Positions 1 to 3,660 of a stretch of 64,000 bases of DNA are shown piece after piece. The number at the start of each line of letters is the position of its first letter. Position 1 is the first letter of the stretch. Source of the DNA: Verrucomicrobiaceae bacterium. Its GTDB lineage: Bacteria; Verrucomicrobiota; Verrucomicrobiia; Verrucomicrobiales; Verrucomicrobiaceae. The stretch covers positions 1 to 64,000 of the forward strand of contig JAIYDW010000244.1 in NCBI GenBank assembly GCA_027487315.1. Direction: 5' to 3'. The notes beneath the pieces were generated by a model. That model was not told the origin of the DNA. It made no database searches and was given only the letters and a program-made list of their open reading frames with translations. A program made the translations under genes and the position numbers.

Positions 1-847
1 CATCACTTCTGCCGTTCACATCCGCCTTCGGCGATCCCACAAAAACATAGTCACTTGTGATGGCCACCGCGCTTCCAAATTCATCGCCATCTGCCACATC
101 CGCAGGCACCACATCCGTACTCACTGTCCCCCCTGGCACCATCCTCGAAAACGTCACCATCCCACAGCTCATCTTCCCCCCCACATCCCTGCTTGGCGAT
201 CCCACCACAAACTGCGCCCCCAAAAGTCCCATCACAGTGCCATAGCCGCAAAACTCCTGGCCTATCACCGGATTGAAAAACGTTCTCGTTTTTCCATCCA
301 CACACGACATGCATCTCACGATGCCTTGAAAAGCATATTGATCGAACACCGGATTCTCCGCCACCCATCCGGTCGGCATTCCCACCAAAAGAGTATCCCC
401 ATCCACCGCAAGGCTTCCAATGCTCGCTGCATTGATCGCCTGCCCCTGATCAAAAGCTTGCGTCCATACCCTCGCCCCAGTCGACAACTCGAAAGCGTGA
501 ACACGATTCGCCGCTTCGACAATAAAAACCCGACTCCCATTCACCGCAATCAATCCACCAAATCCCCCGCTCACCATAGGCTTCGGCGAACGCAACCGGC
601 GCAGATACTTGCCCGTCACAGCACTGAACACCTGCACCTCTCCCGCCGCCCCAGCTCCACTGTAGGTCGCACTCGGTATTCCAACCACAATGTAGCTTTC
701 GCTCACCGCGACCGATTGTTTGCTGCCCGAAATGGACGACGTTCCTGAAGGAAACGTCAACTCTGACGACATGCCCGTCGTCGCATAAACGGCTGCCGTC
801 TGAATCCAAGACAAACCCAAAACAAGCCCAAGAAGATGTCGTTTCAT
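1..847 (-). CDS. Secreted FG-GAP-like beta-propeller protein, 3' part cut off by window edge
   Basis: An open frame runs on the minus strand from an ATG at 845-847 to the window edge without a stop, about 282 residues. The N-terminus is a signal peptide (MKRHLLGLVLGLSWIQTAAVYA). After it come repeated blades of the type SVAVSESYIVVGIPS, GFGGLIAVNGSRVFIVEAA, SIGSLAVDGDTLLVGMP, FGSAVAITSDYVFVGSP. These are the hydrophobic strand plus V-G-x-P ending seen in FG-GAP/integrin-alpha-like propellers. A secreted or surface protein is therefore likely; no enzyme motif is visible. The stop lies outside the window. A palindromic site at 909-938 sits about 60 bases upstream of the start. The frame and the repeats are seen directly; the fold is an inference from the repeat pattern. 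Confidence 0.75.
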   Translation of the reverse strand, partial: MKRHLLGLVLGLSWIQTAAVYATTGMSSELTFPSGTSSISGSKQSVAVSESYIVVGIPSATYSGAGAAGEVQVFSAVTGKYLRRLRSPKPMVSGGFGGLIAVNGSRVFIVEAANRVHAFELSTGARVWTQAFDQGQAINAASIGSLAVDGDTLLVGMPTGWVAENPVFDQYAFQGIVRCMSCVDGKTRTFFNPVIGQEFCGYGTVMGLLGAQFVVGSPSRDVGGKMSCGMVTFSRMVPGGTVSTDVVPADVADGDEFGSAVAITSDYVFVGSPKADVNGRSD

Positions 848-1302
848 AATCAAAAGCGGAACCCGCCCCGCACGTTCTGACTCTCCCTCATCCTCTCTTC
901 CCAACCAATCCGCCTATAGTCCTAGGACTTTAGGCGGAGACGCCCCCTGCTCCCCGTCACCAGCCAACCAAGCTGCTCGTGCTCTCTCGCCAGAGGCAAA
1001 AAGGCAACGGCAACATCCCGTTCGTGGATGACAGACCACCCTCGGGTTCTCGACACACTTCCTGATCACCTTTCCGCTCAAGCCTCGGGCCTGCAGTTCG
1101 TCACGGGTGTGTGCGGTTAGATTCATCGAATGCGAAAGGGGCAATGATTGATGCCGCCTACCTCAAGGTGGGCTCCAAGTTGCAACGGCACCCCAAGACT
1201 GTCATCCCATCGCCATGCCCACAATCCGACTAAAGACCTAGCCTGATCGATTCAATCAAACCGCCGTCGGAGGCTCGTGCCCCAGATCGGTTGAGCCTCG
1301 AT
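848..1302. other. 455-base intergenic stretch with a palindrome and possible transposase scrap
   Basis: No convincing gene. It holds the 28/30 palindrome at 909-938 and a related half-site around 1226-1240 (TCCGACTAAAGACCTAG). On the plus strand from 1144 a short frame reads MIDAAYLKV and then loses any resemblance. That string recalls the catalytic region of IS5-type transposases, but it is too short to call. A minus-strand frame at 914-1144 has no recognisable content. Confidence 0.5.
909..938. promoter_or_regulatory. 30-base near-perfect palindrome centred on CCTAGG (operator-like)
   Basis: The arms TCCGCCTATAGT and ACTTTAGGCGGA flank the centre CCTAGG (921-926). Twenty-eight of 30 positions are self-complementary; only one mirrored base pair mismatches. 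With no loop at the centre it looks like a dimer-binding site, not a terminator. It lies 62-91 bases before the start codon of the propeller gene at 847. Related CCTAGGAC sites stand before the kinase (2655) and DUF4870 (3550) genes. Confidence 0.6.
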
Positions 1303-2655
1303 TCAAATGTGCTCGCCCAGTGTCAGACTCGACAAATCGTCCGCATTTGTCTCAAAAACAGGCAACACCACCGTAAAAGTCGTCCCCTGTCCCGCCGCTG
1401 ATACCAGCGTGATGCTGCCGCCATGAAACTCAACACACCGCTTCACAATCACCAATCCCAACCCCGTTCCCGGAATGTCCCCCACATTTGAAGCTCGATT
1501 GAACGACTCAAACAGGTGCTCTTGATCCTTCTCAGGAATCCCAATCCCGCGATCAGCAATGGAACAAATCGCACTGACTCCCTTGCGCTCGATTCTAACA
1601 GTCACTCGTTCCCCAGTGGGTGAATACTTCACCGCATTGGAAATGAGATTTCCCAAGATGTGCCGAATCAAGGCTTCATCTCCAACTGCCCCATCCAACT
1701 CACCTTCGGTCTCGATATAAATTGGGCATCGGCTTTCAGAAATGGATTGCTGTTCATCGACGATCTTTTGAATGAGCCCCACCAAGTTCAAAGGCATCGG
1801 CTTGAATCCTAACTTCCCAGCTTCGACACGCCCAAGTAACAACACATGCTCCATCAGGCTCGCCATATTCCGCGTCGCCGAATAGATATCGTCACAGAGT
1901 TCCCGCCTCTTGTCCGCAGACAGCTTCTCGTCGTAATGTCGGATAACCTCCACCGCAGACATCGTCACTCCAAGAGGTGTCCGAAATTCATGACTCACCA
2001 TCCCCACAAATCGACTCTTCAACTCACCCAATTCACGCTCTGCCAGCAACGCCTCGTTTAACTCCTTCCGCGCAGCCTCCAACTCGGCCGTGCGCAATGC
2101 CACCCTCTCCTCCAAAGTGTGATTAAGCGTCAGCATCGCCTCTTCCGCCCGCTTCGTTTCCGTAATGTCATTGTGAACGGTCACCACCTCCAACACCCGA
2201 CCTTCAACGTCTTTGACGGGATACAAGACCCCCCCAATCCATCGGGTCTGAGGCGGATCCGTATTCACAGGGAACGGCACCGGCGGCACATCCACAGTCT
2301 GACCCTCATCAAACGCTAACCGAATCAAATTCACCGCTCCTGTCTTAATCAAATCAGGGTCTTTCAATGGATTGAATGCCAACCCCTGTTCTTCTGTCAG
2401 GTGAAACAGTTTACGCCATCAAGCATTCACCCTCTTGGTCTGCCCGTCCGGTCTGAAAATCTGCACACTCAGTGGACTCTGTTCAAACAACAACCGCCAC
2501 CGTGTCTCACTCGCATGCGCCGCTTCACTCGCTACCCTGCTCTCTTGAAGTACCTCCTCACGCATGCGTCTTTCCCGCCCCCTAAAATACATCGACGACG
2601 CAACAAAGCCGCAGCCTAGTGCCGCCAAACTTGTAGCGAGAAAATGCACTTCCAT
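1303..2655 (-). pseudogene. Membrane PAS-containing sensor histidine kinase interrupted by one in-frame TGA
   Basis: Two frames at 2419-2655 and 1303-2382 are in the same phase and are separated only by a TGA at 2419-2421 (codon 79). Read through, they give one normal hybrid histidine kinase of about 450 residues. It has an N-terminal membrane segment (residues 4-24), a PAS domain that spans the stop (VNA-stop-WRKLF), a PAC segment, and a coiled coil. Then come a HisKA domain (SHEFRTPLG, phospho-His near codon 222) and an ATPase domain with N box (HILGNLISNAVKY), DRGIGIP and GTGLGLVIVKR. It would autophosphorylate and pass phosphate to a response regulator, but no regulator gene is nearby. 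All catalytic boxes are intact, so the stop is recent, is a sequencing error, or is read through. The start at 2655 precedes the membrane segment; a CCTAGGAC site lies about 50 bases upstream. Confidence 0.8.
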
Positions 2656-2704
2656 CCGCTAAGCCATTCAACACCCAGCAGAAAAACGCAAACCCAAAAA
2701 TAAC

Positions 2705-2728
2705 GGACTCCCTAGGACCGATTCCATC
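2705..2728. promoter_or_regulatory. CCTAGGAC site upstream of the histidine kinase gene
   Basis: GGACTCCCTAGGACCGATTC shares the CCTAGGAC core with the sites at 909-938 and 3628-3657, but its outer arms are poorly symmetric. It lies 50-73 bases before the kinase start at 2655. A shared transcription factor is inferred only. Confidence 0.3.
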
Positions 2729-2753
2729 CAGGAAAATGCCTCATCACACCGGC

Positions 2754-2787
2754 AAAAAACGCACAAAGCCAATTCAGGCTTTGTGCG
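2754..2787 (-). terminator. Intrinsic terminator of the small secreted Sm-like gene
   Basis: On the minus strand an 11-base stem CGCACAAAGCC / GGCTTTGTGCG (2760-2787) closes a 6-base loop and is followed at once by TTTTTT (2754-2759). This is a textbook Rho-independent terminator, 33 bases past the stop of the gene at 2821-3117. Confidence 0.88.
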
Positions 2788-2820
2788 CTCCCAATGGGAC
2801 AGTCACACGGTTCCATTCGT

Positions 2821-3117
2821 CTATTTTTGAGCCGCTGAGCGCACGATCACTGAACTGATGTCATCCAGCACCACCACCGCTTCAAACAACTCCTGCCCCA
2901 CCAACTCCGAGAGGTGGAGGATCGATGCGCTGACCTGAGCCACTTTGCCCTTGATCGTCTCACCTGACTCCAGTCGCAACTCGACCACCTGTCCTACCTG
3001 TCGTTGCAGCACCGCTTCAATCGTATCGTTGGCCTTGTATCCAAGCCCGATCGAAGGAGCCGCACAAGCCATGTTGCATACCACGACGGTCACAAAGAGA
3101 ATGAGAAATGTTTTCAT
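2821..3117 (-). CDS. Small secreted protein with Sm-like core
   Basis: A 98-residue protein with a clear signal peptide (MKTFLILFVTVVVCNMACAA). The mature part has the strand pattern VGQVVELRLESGETIKG, VAQVSASILHLSEL, EAVVVLDDISSVIV. This resembles the five-stranded LSm/Hfq-type barrel (strand, glycine turn, strand, G-x-V, and a final I-x-x-V strand). That fold is normally cytoplasmic, so an exported version would be unusual; the assignment is inferred from pattern only. The gene has its own intrinsic terminator just downstream and is followed in the same direction by the kinase gene. No function is claimed. Confidence 0.7.
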   Translation of the reverse strand: MKTFLILFVTVVVCNMACAAPSIGLGYKANDTIEAVLQRQVGQVVELRLESGETIKGKVAQVSASILHLSELVGQELFEAVVVLDDISSVIVRSAAQK

Positions 3118-3151
3118 AGTTGGATTGAGTTAGAGATTCAGCCGGCACTTC

Positions 3152-3550
3152 TTATTTGATCAGACGGAGATTGCCAGGATACCGCAACAGCCACCCTTGC
3201 TGCGCCTTCAAAGCTCCAATCATTACCAGAACCAGCATCGCAAAGCTCAGCACACTGGTGCCGATACTCACTACTGTCGCCAAAGCCATCGACCCTAGCA
3301 GTCCGCTGATGAATCCGATTGGAAACAGGACAATCAAAAGCGTGATCCCCATGTTGAGCGCCTCCTTGCCATGCGCATCCACAGCAGGACTCGCTTTTCG
3401 TTTCAAGGGCCAGACGATCAATGGAATCAAATGGGCCAGAAGCACAAAAGTCCGTTCCTTGTCTATGGACATGTCTCCTTGGCCAAAGGCTGGAGCAGCT
3501 TCAATACGAATGGGAAGGCGATTACTAGGGTCAAGTGTTTCAGTTTTCAT
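3152..3550 (-). CDS. DUF4870-like membrane protein
   Basis: A protein of about 132 residues. An N-terminal cytosolic stretch is followed by DKERTFVLLAHLIPLIVWPLKRK, then PAVDAHGKEALNMGITLLIVL, a glycine-rich hydrophobic segment and a last membrane segment before GWLLRYPGNLRLIK. The order (hydrophobic segment, acidic/H-x-K-E-A-L-N motif, paired membrane segments) is that of DUF4870 (Tic20-like) small membrane proteins of unknown function. A frame extends upstream to a TTG at 3619, but the ATG at 3550 starts a protein of normal family length. The extension would run through the sequence between the gene and the palindrome at 3628-3657. No Shine-Dalgarno sequence is evident. Confidence 0.75.
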   Translation of the reverse strand: MKTETLDPSNRLPIRIEAAPAFGQGDMSIDKERTFVLLAHLIPLIVWPLKRKASPAVDAHGKEALNMGITLLIVLFPIGFISGLLGSMALATVVSIGTSVLSFAMLVLVMIGALKAQQGWLLRYPGNLRLIK

Positions 3551-3627
3551 ATGGGATTCAAATATCGTGTTGATGATGTCATTCAGGATGACGCCACCAT
3601 CATGAACCCCTCGTCCCAAACCCGCTA

Positions 3628-3657
3628 TCGGACCTCCGTCCTAGGACCAAAGTCGGA
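3628..3657. promoter_or_regulatory. CCTAGG-centred imperfect palindrome upstream of the DUF4870 gene
   Basis: Centre CCTAGG at 3640-3645; left arm TCGGACCTCCGT, right arm ACCAAAGTCGGA; 8 of 12 arm positions pair. The right arm ends in GTCGGA, like the GGCGGA end of the site at 909-938. It sits between the stop of the MBL gene (3661) and the DUF4870 start (3550), about 80-110 bases upstream of the latter. Confidence 0.45.
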
Positions 3658-3660
3658 GCC

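Follow-up and report, generated by a model that had tools for sequence, protein, structure and literature searches.

Among described systems, the nitrate regulon of E. coli is the closest to the one reported here. The NarL dimer binds pairs of heptamers separated by two bases (7-2-7 sites), and activates from positions of about -40 to -49 at napF and about -38 to -47 at yeaR (PMC4549865). The GTAG/CGTC REP palindromes that accompany RAYT, which are likewise short and intergenic, are known in Verrucomicrobia too (PMC3733652).

The window analysed here is a stretch of 64,000 nucleotides on contig C109 of the genome of a Verrucomicrobiaceae bacterium (G000; 5.87 Mb in 256 contigs). It carries two copies of a 34-base element, which reads TCCGACTWWRGTCCTASKMCNWWGGTCCGATASC in the sense direction of its target. 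As in the NarL/NarX(Q) nitrate regulon, inverted heptamers lie two bases apart, and the candidate regulator joins a receiver to a LuxR-type (GerE) domain. This protein matches both NarL (1a04; E=3.5e-20, residues 4-206) and VraR (5hev; E=6.3e-17, residues 5-209), NarL/FixJ-family response regulators with solved structures, over its full length; in the wider list of matches the similarity is mostly that of receiver domains, and DNA target and partner kinases differ. Unlike the engineered NarL site TACCCCTAAAGGGGTA (PMC4549865), the heptamer here is T[CA][CG]GAC[TC]. Furthermore, nearly every promoter has two pairs with two bases in common, and in place of respiration genes the targets encode secreted propellers and DUF proteins. 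We found no description of such a regulon in Verrucomicrobia in the open-access library that was searched.

Results

Two window sites belong to a conserved element

The initial annotation had proposed a regulon marked by palindromes centred on CCTAGGAC. This sequence is found at 921, 2711 and 3640, with five strand-matches in the window versus 0.49 expected from shuffles. As had been noted, each of the three sites is intergenic and precedes a minus-strand gene (ATG at 847, about 2657 and 3550), and the palindrome at 909-938 is self-complementary at 28 of its 30 bases. The distance to the ATG is 62 bases from 909-938 to 847, and 78 bases for the site before 3550. The features concerned are as follows.

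2-847, minus strand: secreted beta-propeller protein, a predicted target cut by the contig end (FG-GAP_2, 2.3e-8; PQQ_2, 2.8e-8)
880-885, minus strand: -10-like hexamer GAGAGT of the propeller promoter (columns 54-59, same register; weaker than in other copies)
906-938, minus strand: predicted operator element of the propeller promoter (R1, 27.1 bits; R2, E=1.0e-5, as a training-set member)
1225-1242, plus strand: half-element TCCGACTAAAGACCTAGC, one possible 7-2-7 pair of doubtful function, without promoter geometry
1303-2657, minus strand: orphan sensor histidine kinase (HisKA, HATPase_c), with no regulator beside it
2705-2728, no strand assigned: occurrence of CCTAGGAC excluded from the element family
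2821-3117, minus strand: small predicted secreted protein, separated by a 34-base gap from the DUF4870 gene
3152-3550, minus strand: DUF4870 membrane protein, a predicted target (PF09685, E=4.9e-17)
3599-3604, minus strand: -10-like hexamer CATGAT of the DUF4870 promoter (alignment columns 54-59)
3624-3657, minus strand: predicted operator element of the DUF4870 promoter (R1, 33.5 bits; R2, E=1.1e-14 genome-wide, as a training-set member)

By itself, CCTAGGAC did not hold as a marker. The ten-base palindromic core GTCCTAGGAC occurs at three places in the genome against five for the reversed control; being at background, the exact core was dropped. The information lies in the full 34-base element, present at 906-938 and at 3624-3657. 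A looser pattern, TCCGACYWWRGTC, gives 14 strand-matches in the genome versus one in the control. Background frequency or a mostly intragenic location had been named as grounds for refutation; the 8- to 10-base words are indeed at background, but the full element is neither at background nor mostly intragenic.

Two search models were built from sequence only: R1, with 35 positions from nine copies, and R2, with 74 positions from 26 non-redundant copies. In the source genome, R2 finds about ten places at E<=1.4e-4, including 3588-3658 (1.1e-14) and 872-940 (1.0e-5), two values that are optimistic since both window sites are in the training sets. More than 60 copies were found across 15 genomes of the order, the best model match having E=8e-16. 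At E<=0.01 the element is present in 14 of the 68 genomes of the family, strongly so in 12. Outside the family, it is found at E<=1e-4 only in G126, G210 and G214 among the 289 order genomes searched, and all three are from another, second family. The sites in these three genomes and in G058, G059, G062, G068 and G072 were found later and are outside the training sets.

The genome-wide count of GTCCTAGGAC is in keeping with a mere chance cluster of an 8-mer. For 906-938 and 3624-3657, however, this explanation is refuted by conservation in relatives and by the strength of the model matches, and as an account of the whole we give it practically no credence. The element at 3624-3657 is conserved in G001 and G003, and its core is intact in the near relative L090. 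The copy at 906-938 is the most symmetrical one, with C for A in its outer heptamers, and the propeller orthologue in G001 is preceded by the same element.

Two of the four places originally named, 909-938 and 3628-3657, were kept as members of the element family; 2705-2728 and 1226-1240 were not. The site at 2705-2728 is matched neither by R1 in the window at E<=10 nor by R2 at E<=1. Its core reads TTAGGTCAG in L090, which is about 86% identical over this stretch; because the core is not conserved there, the site was ruled out as a promoter site of the kinase, and is probably a chance occurrence of the 8-mer. The proposal that the kinase gene is itself a target is therefore unsupported. As for 1225-1242, it matches only the left half of the element (one mismatch in 18) and points towards the kinase gene from its 3' side, which is why it was not placed as a promoter; it is at best a lone half-element.

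Probable promoter layout of the element

The element can be divided into TCCGACT-WW-AGTCCTA and TAGGACC-WW-GGTCCGA, with two-base spacers and a TA common to both pairs; at 3624-3657 it reads TCCGACT-TT-GGTCCTA and TAGGACG-GA-GGTCCGA, again with the TA in common, followed by TAGC. When all 7-n-7 layouts are ranked, the 7-2-7 pairs at columns 1-16 (63% paired) and 15-30 (57%) come first and third, the second rank being taken by columns 9-22 around the overall dyad. From its sequence, the element reads as a NarL/LuxR-type layout of two inverted 7-2-7 heptamer pairs.

A -10-like NANNNT follows at a fixed register. Its A (column 55) is present in 40 and its T (column 59) in 38 of the 45 aligned copies, about eight of which lack the A or the T at this register, and it is at these two positions that the sigma70 -10 hexamer is best conserved. 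A weaker GTCA is seen at columns 66-69 in the same ungapped register. There is no recognisable -35 (TTGACA), columns 31-36 being TASCCG, which fits an activator-dependent promoter. We consider it very probable that the element is a promoter element.

Some copies depart from this layout. Lone heptamer pairs occur too, such as TCCGACTTTGGTCGGA, 56 bases 5' of the kinase gene on contig C237. The elements at a divergent locus, located between a zinc-ribbon gene and a CDP-alcohol phosphotransferase-like gene (G000:C203, G001:C21 and G003:C113), are off the -10 register. Furthermore, the right half and the -10 alone are found at L193 5396-5451, L198 5480-5535, L199 5509-5562 and L197 5910-5965, before secreted-protein-like genes; these half-element promoters are perhaps single-site members of the regulon.

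An inverted repeat 5' of start codons could also form an RNA hairpin that acts in cis from the 5' leader, such as a riboswitch, a thermometer or a terminator-like structure. However, the conserved -10-like hexamer lies downstream of the element, which would then be untranscribed from that promoter; the outer arms have a conserved C/G mismatch, which points to recognition of the DNA sequence; and Rfam has no match within the window. An RNA hairpin is thus very improbable.

The copies might instead be dispersed REP/MITE-type palindromes, moved by a RAYT transposase and devoid of a regulatory role, a reading that draws on their being short, intergenic and patchily distributed, and on the RAYT-type genes in the genome. 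We rejected this reading and rate it as low as the hairpin: the RAYT loci of the source genome are free of the element and are accompanied by different inverted repeats, whereas the copies face genes of recurring families in one orientation and at a fixed distance from the -10. Unlike the REP palindromes described earlier (PMC3733652), the element has no terminal GTAG/CGTC tag, its ends being TCCGAC and GATASC; it is not located at RAYT genes here, and its promoter geometry is fixed. It should also be noted that the Y1 transposase (RAYT-like) genes at L048, L049 and L052 (G000:C27, C103 and C129) have inverted repeats of their own, e.g. GGGGCAAGCATCTTGCTTGCC and CCGGTGGTTGCACCACCGG.

Genes behind the element

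With genes called by a home-made ORF scorer, an ORF start was found 33-104 bases downstream of the element, always in the one orientation, for 53 of the 56 copies that were individually examined; two copies listed at +151 reflect mis-chosen starts, the true ATG being at +73. The exceptions are G012:C32:85354 and G068:C509:7080, in both of which the next gene is over 400 bases away, and G000:C103. In the last case (L101 4600-5036), a full element with intact -10 features is followed by no convincing gene, for which we offer gene loss or a small RNA as alternatives. The less clear copies are those at contig edges and those of the zinc-ribbon/CDP-alcohol locus.

The domains found in 51 target proteins include FG-GAP_2 (15), DUF7453 (8), PQQ_2 (7), DUF4412 (5) and DUF4870 (5). 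By a simple hydropathy rule, signal-peptide-like N-termini are present in 38 of 53 targets compared with 86 of 310 other genes of these loci (p=2.5e-9). At non-orthologous places in several genera, and with differing upstream neighbours, the element is found again and again before DUF4870, DUF4412 and propeller genes, and small secreted proteins are also among the recurrent targets. DUF4870 orthologues stand behind the same element in G001, G011, G018 and G024, as well as in G126 of the other family; in G126 and G214, too, the element stands before DUF4870 and DUF4412 genes. In the window, the protein encoded at 2821-3117 shares 48% identity with a G011 protein whose gene is preceded by a separate element, and the window gene probably forms one transcription unit, a predicted operon, with the DUF4870 gene. 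Taken together, there is good support for the initial proposal of a regulon in which a palindromic operator precedes genes of secreted or membrane proteins.

Two further groups of loci were observed. In G012:C32 and G000:C138 (L108 and L100), FG-GAP propeller genes form tandem pairs in which either gene has an element of its own, an arrangement conserved between genera. In G062 and G059, elements precede genes of NHNETLVRAKDLxPKGxIKGG-type repeat proteins, near a C39-peptidase ABC transporter (PF03412, 4.8e-38) and an HlyD protein. The repeated GG suggests that these proteins may be precursors of secreted peptides that are cut several times. Their loci are the following.

L176, 9094-13419
L177, 11716-12351 and 17311-17742
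L178, 6048-6521
L179 and L180

A LuxR-type candidate regulator

The candidate regulator of the source genome is encoded on G000:C237 (C237:15620-16255). Its clade, within which identity is 64-97%, has receiver and GerE/LuxR domains (PF00072, 1.7e-29, and PF00196, 3.2e-20, in L186:18358-18996; likewise in L177:10879-11520). In the phospho-acceptor region, IIED, the D of LILCDVMMPE and the K of LTKP are aligned in nine of nine proteins, the G001 protein having E at LILCE.

A search with the G011 protein finds the regulator at identities of at least 64% in 12 of the 68 family genomes, namely G000 (68%), G001, G011, G012, G013, G018, G024, G058, G059, G062, G068 and G072; the identity cut-offs were set after this list was seen. 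The strong-element genomes are the same set minus G013 plus G003. Both regulator and element are thus present in 11 genomes, either one alone in one genome each, and neither in 55 (p=9e-11), a value inflated by genome relatedness, as the positives G000/G001/G003 and G011/G018 are not independent; common descent can by itself produce such co-occurrence. G013, with the regulator and no clear element (best E=0.08), is a real exception; in G003, which is 85% complete, elements are present and the regulator was not found.

The second family offers a better test than this within-family table. There, the regulator is found in all three element genomes (60, 59 and 73%) versus none of seven element-free relatives (best 55%); the 73% match is to a contig-cut piece, and the element lies on that same contig of 3.6 kb. 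When 25 regulators were placed in a tree, the 13 of element-positive genomes grouped with that of G013 in one clade, with support of only 89/95. The recognition helix of this clade is SE[KR]T[AV]K[QH]H, unlike that of the paralogues. A paralogue of 53-58% identity was ruled out as the factor, being present in the element-free G005, G006, G015, G017, G048, G061 and G081.

Gene neighbourhood points to the same protein. Element clusters adjoin sensor kinases and the response regulator (receiver and LuxR-type) in G011, G018 and G062, and in G059 and G024 element copies lie next to genes for kinases or receivers. Hence, the earlier suggestion that a response regulator is the factor is supported by co-occurrence, neighbourhood and operator layout.

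The element could instead be the genuine operator of another factor, a transcription factor or an alternative sigma that reads the GGTCCGATA half, with the LuxR-type regulator merely travelling along. In some copies the right half and the -10 do outconserve the left half (partial matches at 17-72 or 19-72 in G000:C32, G003:C38 and G004:C81). Nevertheless, the LuxR-type regulator is favoured by the layout of the dyad and its fit to 7-2-7 pairs, by the diagnostic recognition helix and by the co-occurrence seen again in the second family, and we consider another factor unlikely.

The initial annotation had also suggested that the regulator might be the missing partner of the window kinase. The catalytic half of this kinase shares 55% identity across 278 residues with the kinase encoded alongside the C237 regulator, an identity that allows both to feed the same regulator. 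The C237 protein is a plausible partner, although it has its own neighbouring kinase; input from the window kinase would be a possible case of cross-talk. The window kinase gene has an in-frame TGA at 2419-2421. This frame is open in L090, and the TGA would thus be a point mutation or a sequencing error.

A histidine kinase is encoded beside the regulator in G011, G018, G062 and G000:C237. Between the kinase and regulator genes of C237 lies a gene for a single-domain globin (L107 2353-2781; PF00042, 1.4e-14), and similar globin genes are found beside the regulator in G001, G012, G058, G059 and G062. From this neighbourhood, our guess is that the signal may be related to oxygen or NO.

Discussion

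The best explanation for these observations is that the G000:C237 regulator binds the element and, through this predicted binding, activates the element promoters; we put the probability at roughly 0.78. The element would be the operator of an activator-dependent promoter, and the NarL/LuxR-type response regulator would occupy it as dimers on two 7-2-7 heptamer pairs that overlap by two bases. Given a transcription start about seven bases past the -10, the site centres would lie at about -57 and -43. Next to a -10 without an obvious -35, the regulator would recruit RNA polymerase. In the window, it would switch on the propeller gene (2-847) and the unit of the DUF4870 protein and the small secreted protein (3550-2821). 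The comparisons show the element family, its constant spacing to a -10-like hexamer, its place in front of genes, the recurrence of target families and the association with the regulator by co-occurrence and neighbourhood; from these we infer the binding, activation rather than repression, where transcription starts, which kinase is the partner and what the signal is.

The regulon is real, apparently undescribed and of a known kind. The broader picture, to which we give even odds, is that of a two-component system with an undescribed operator (two 7-2-7 sites fused by TA in a near-fixed promoter cassette), which may control varying sets of secreted beta-propellers and small envelope proteins, is globin-linked in several genomes, and may have been passed between Verrucomicrobia families together with its target genes. 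The analysis defines the operator sequence precisely, names a candidate for the regulator and one for the kinase, and lists their targets, most of them secreted propellers and DUFs of unknown role. Since these families recur behind one switch, they can be studied jointly.
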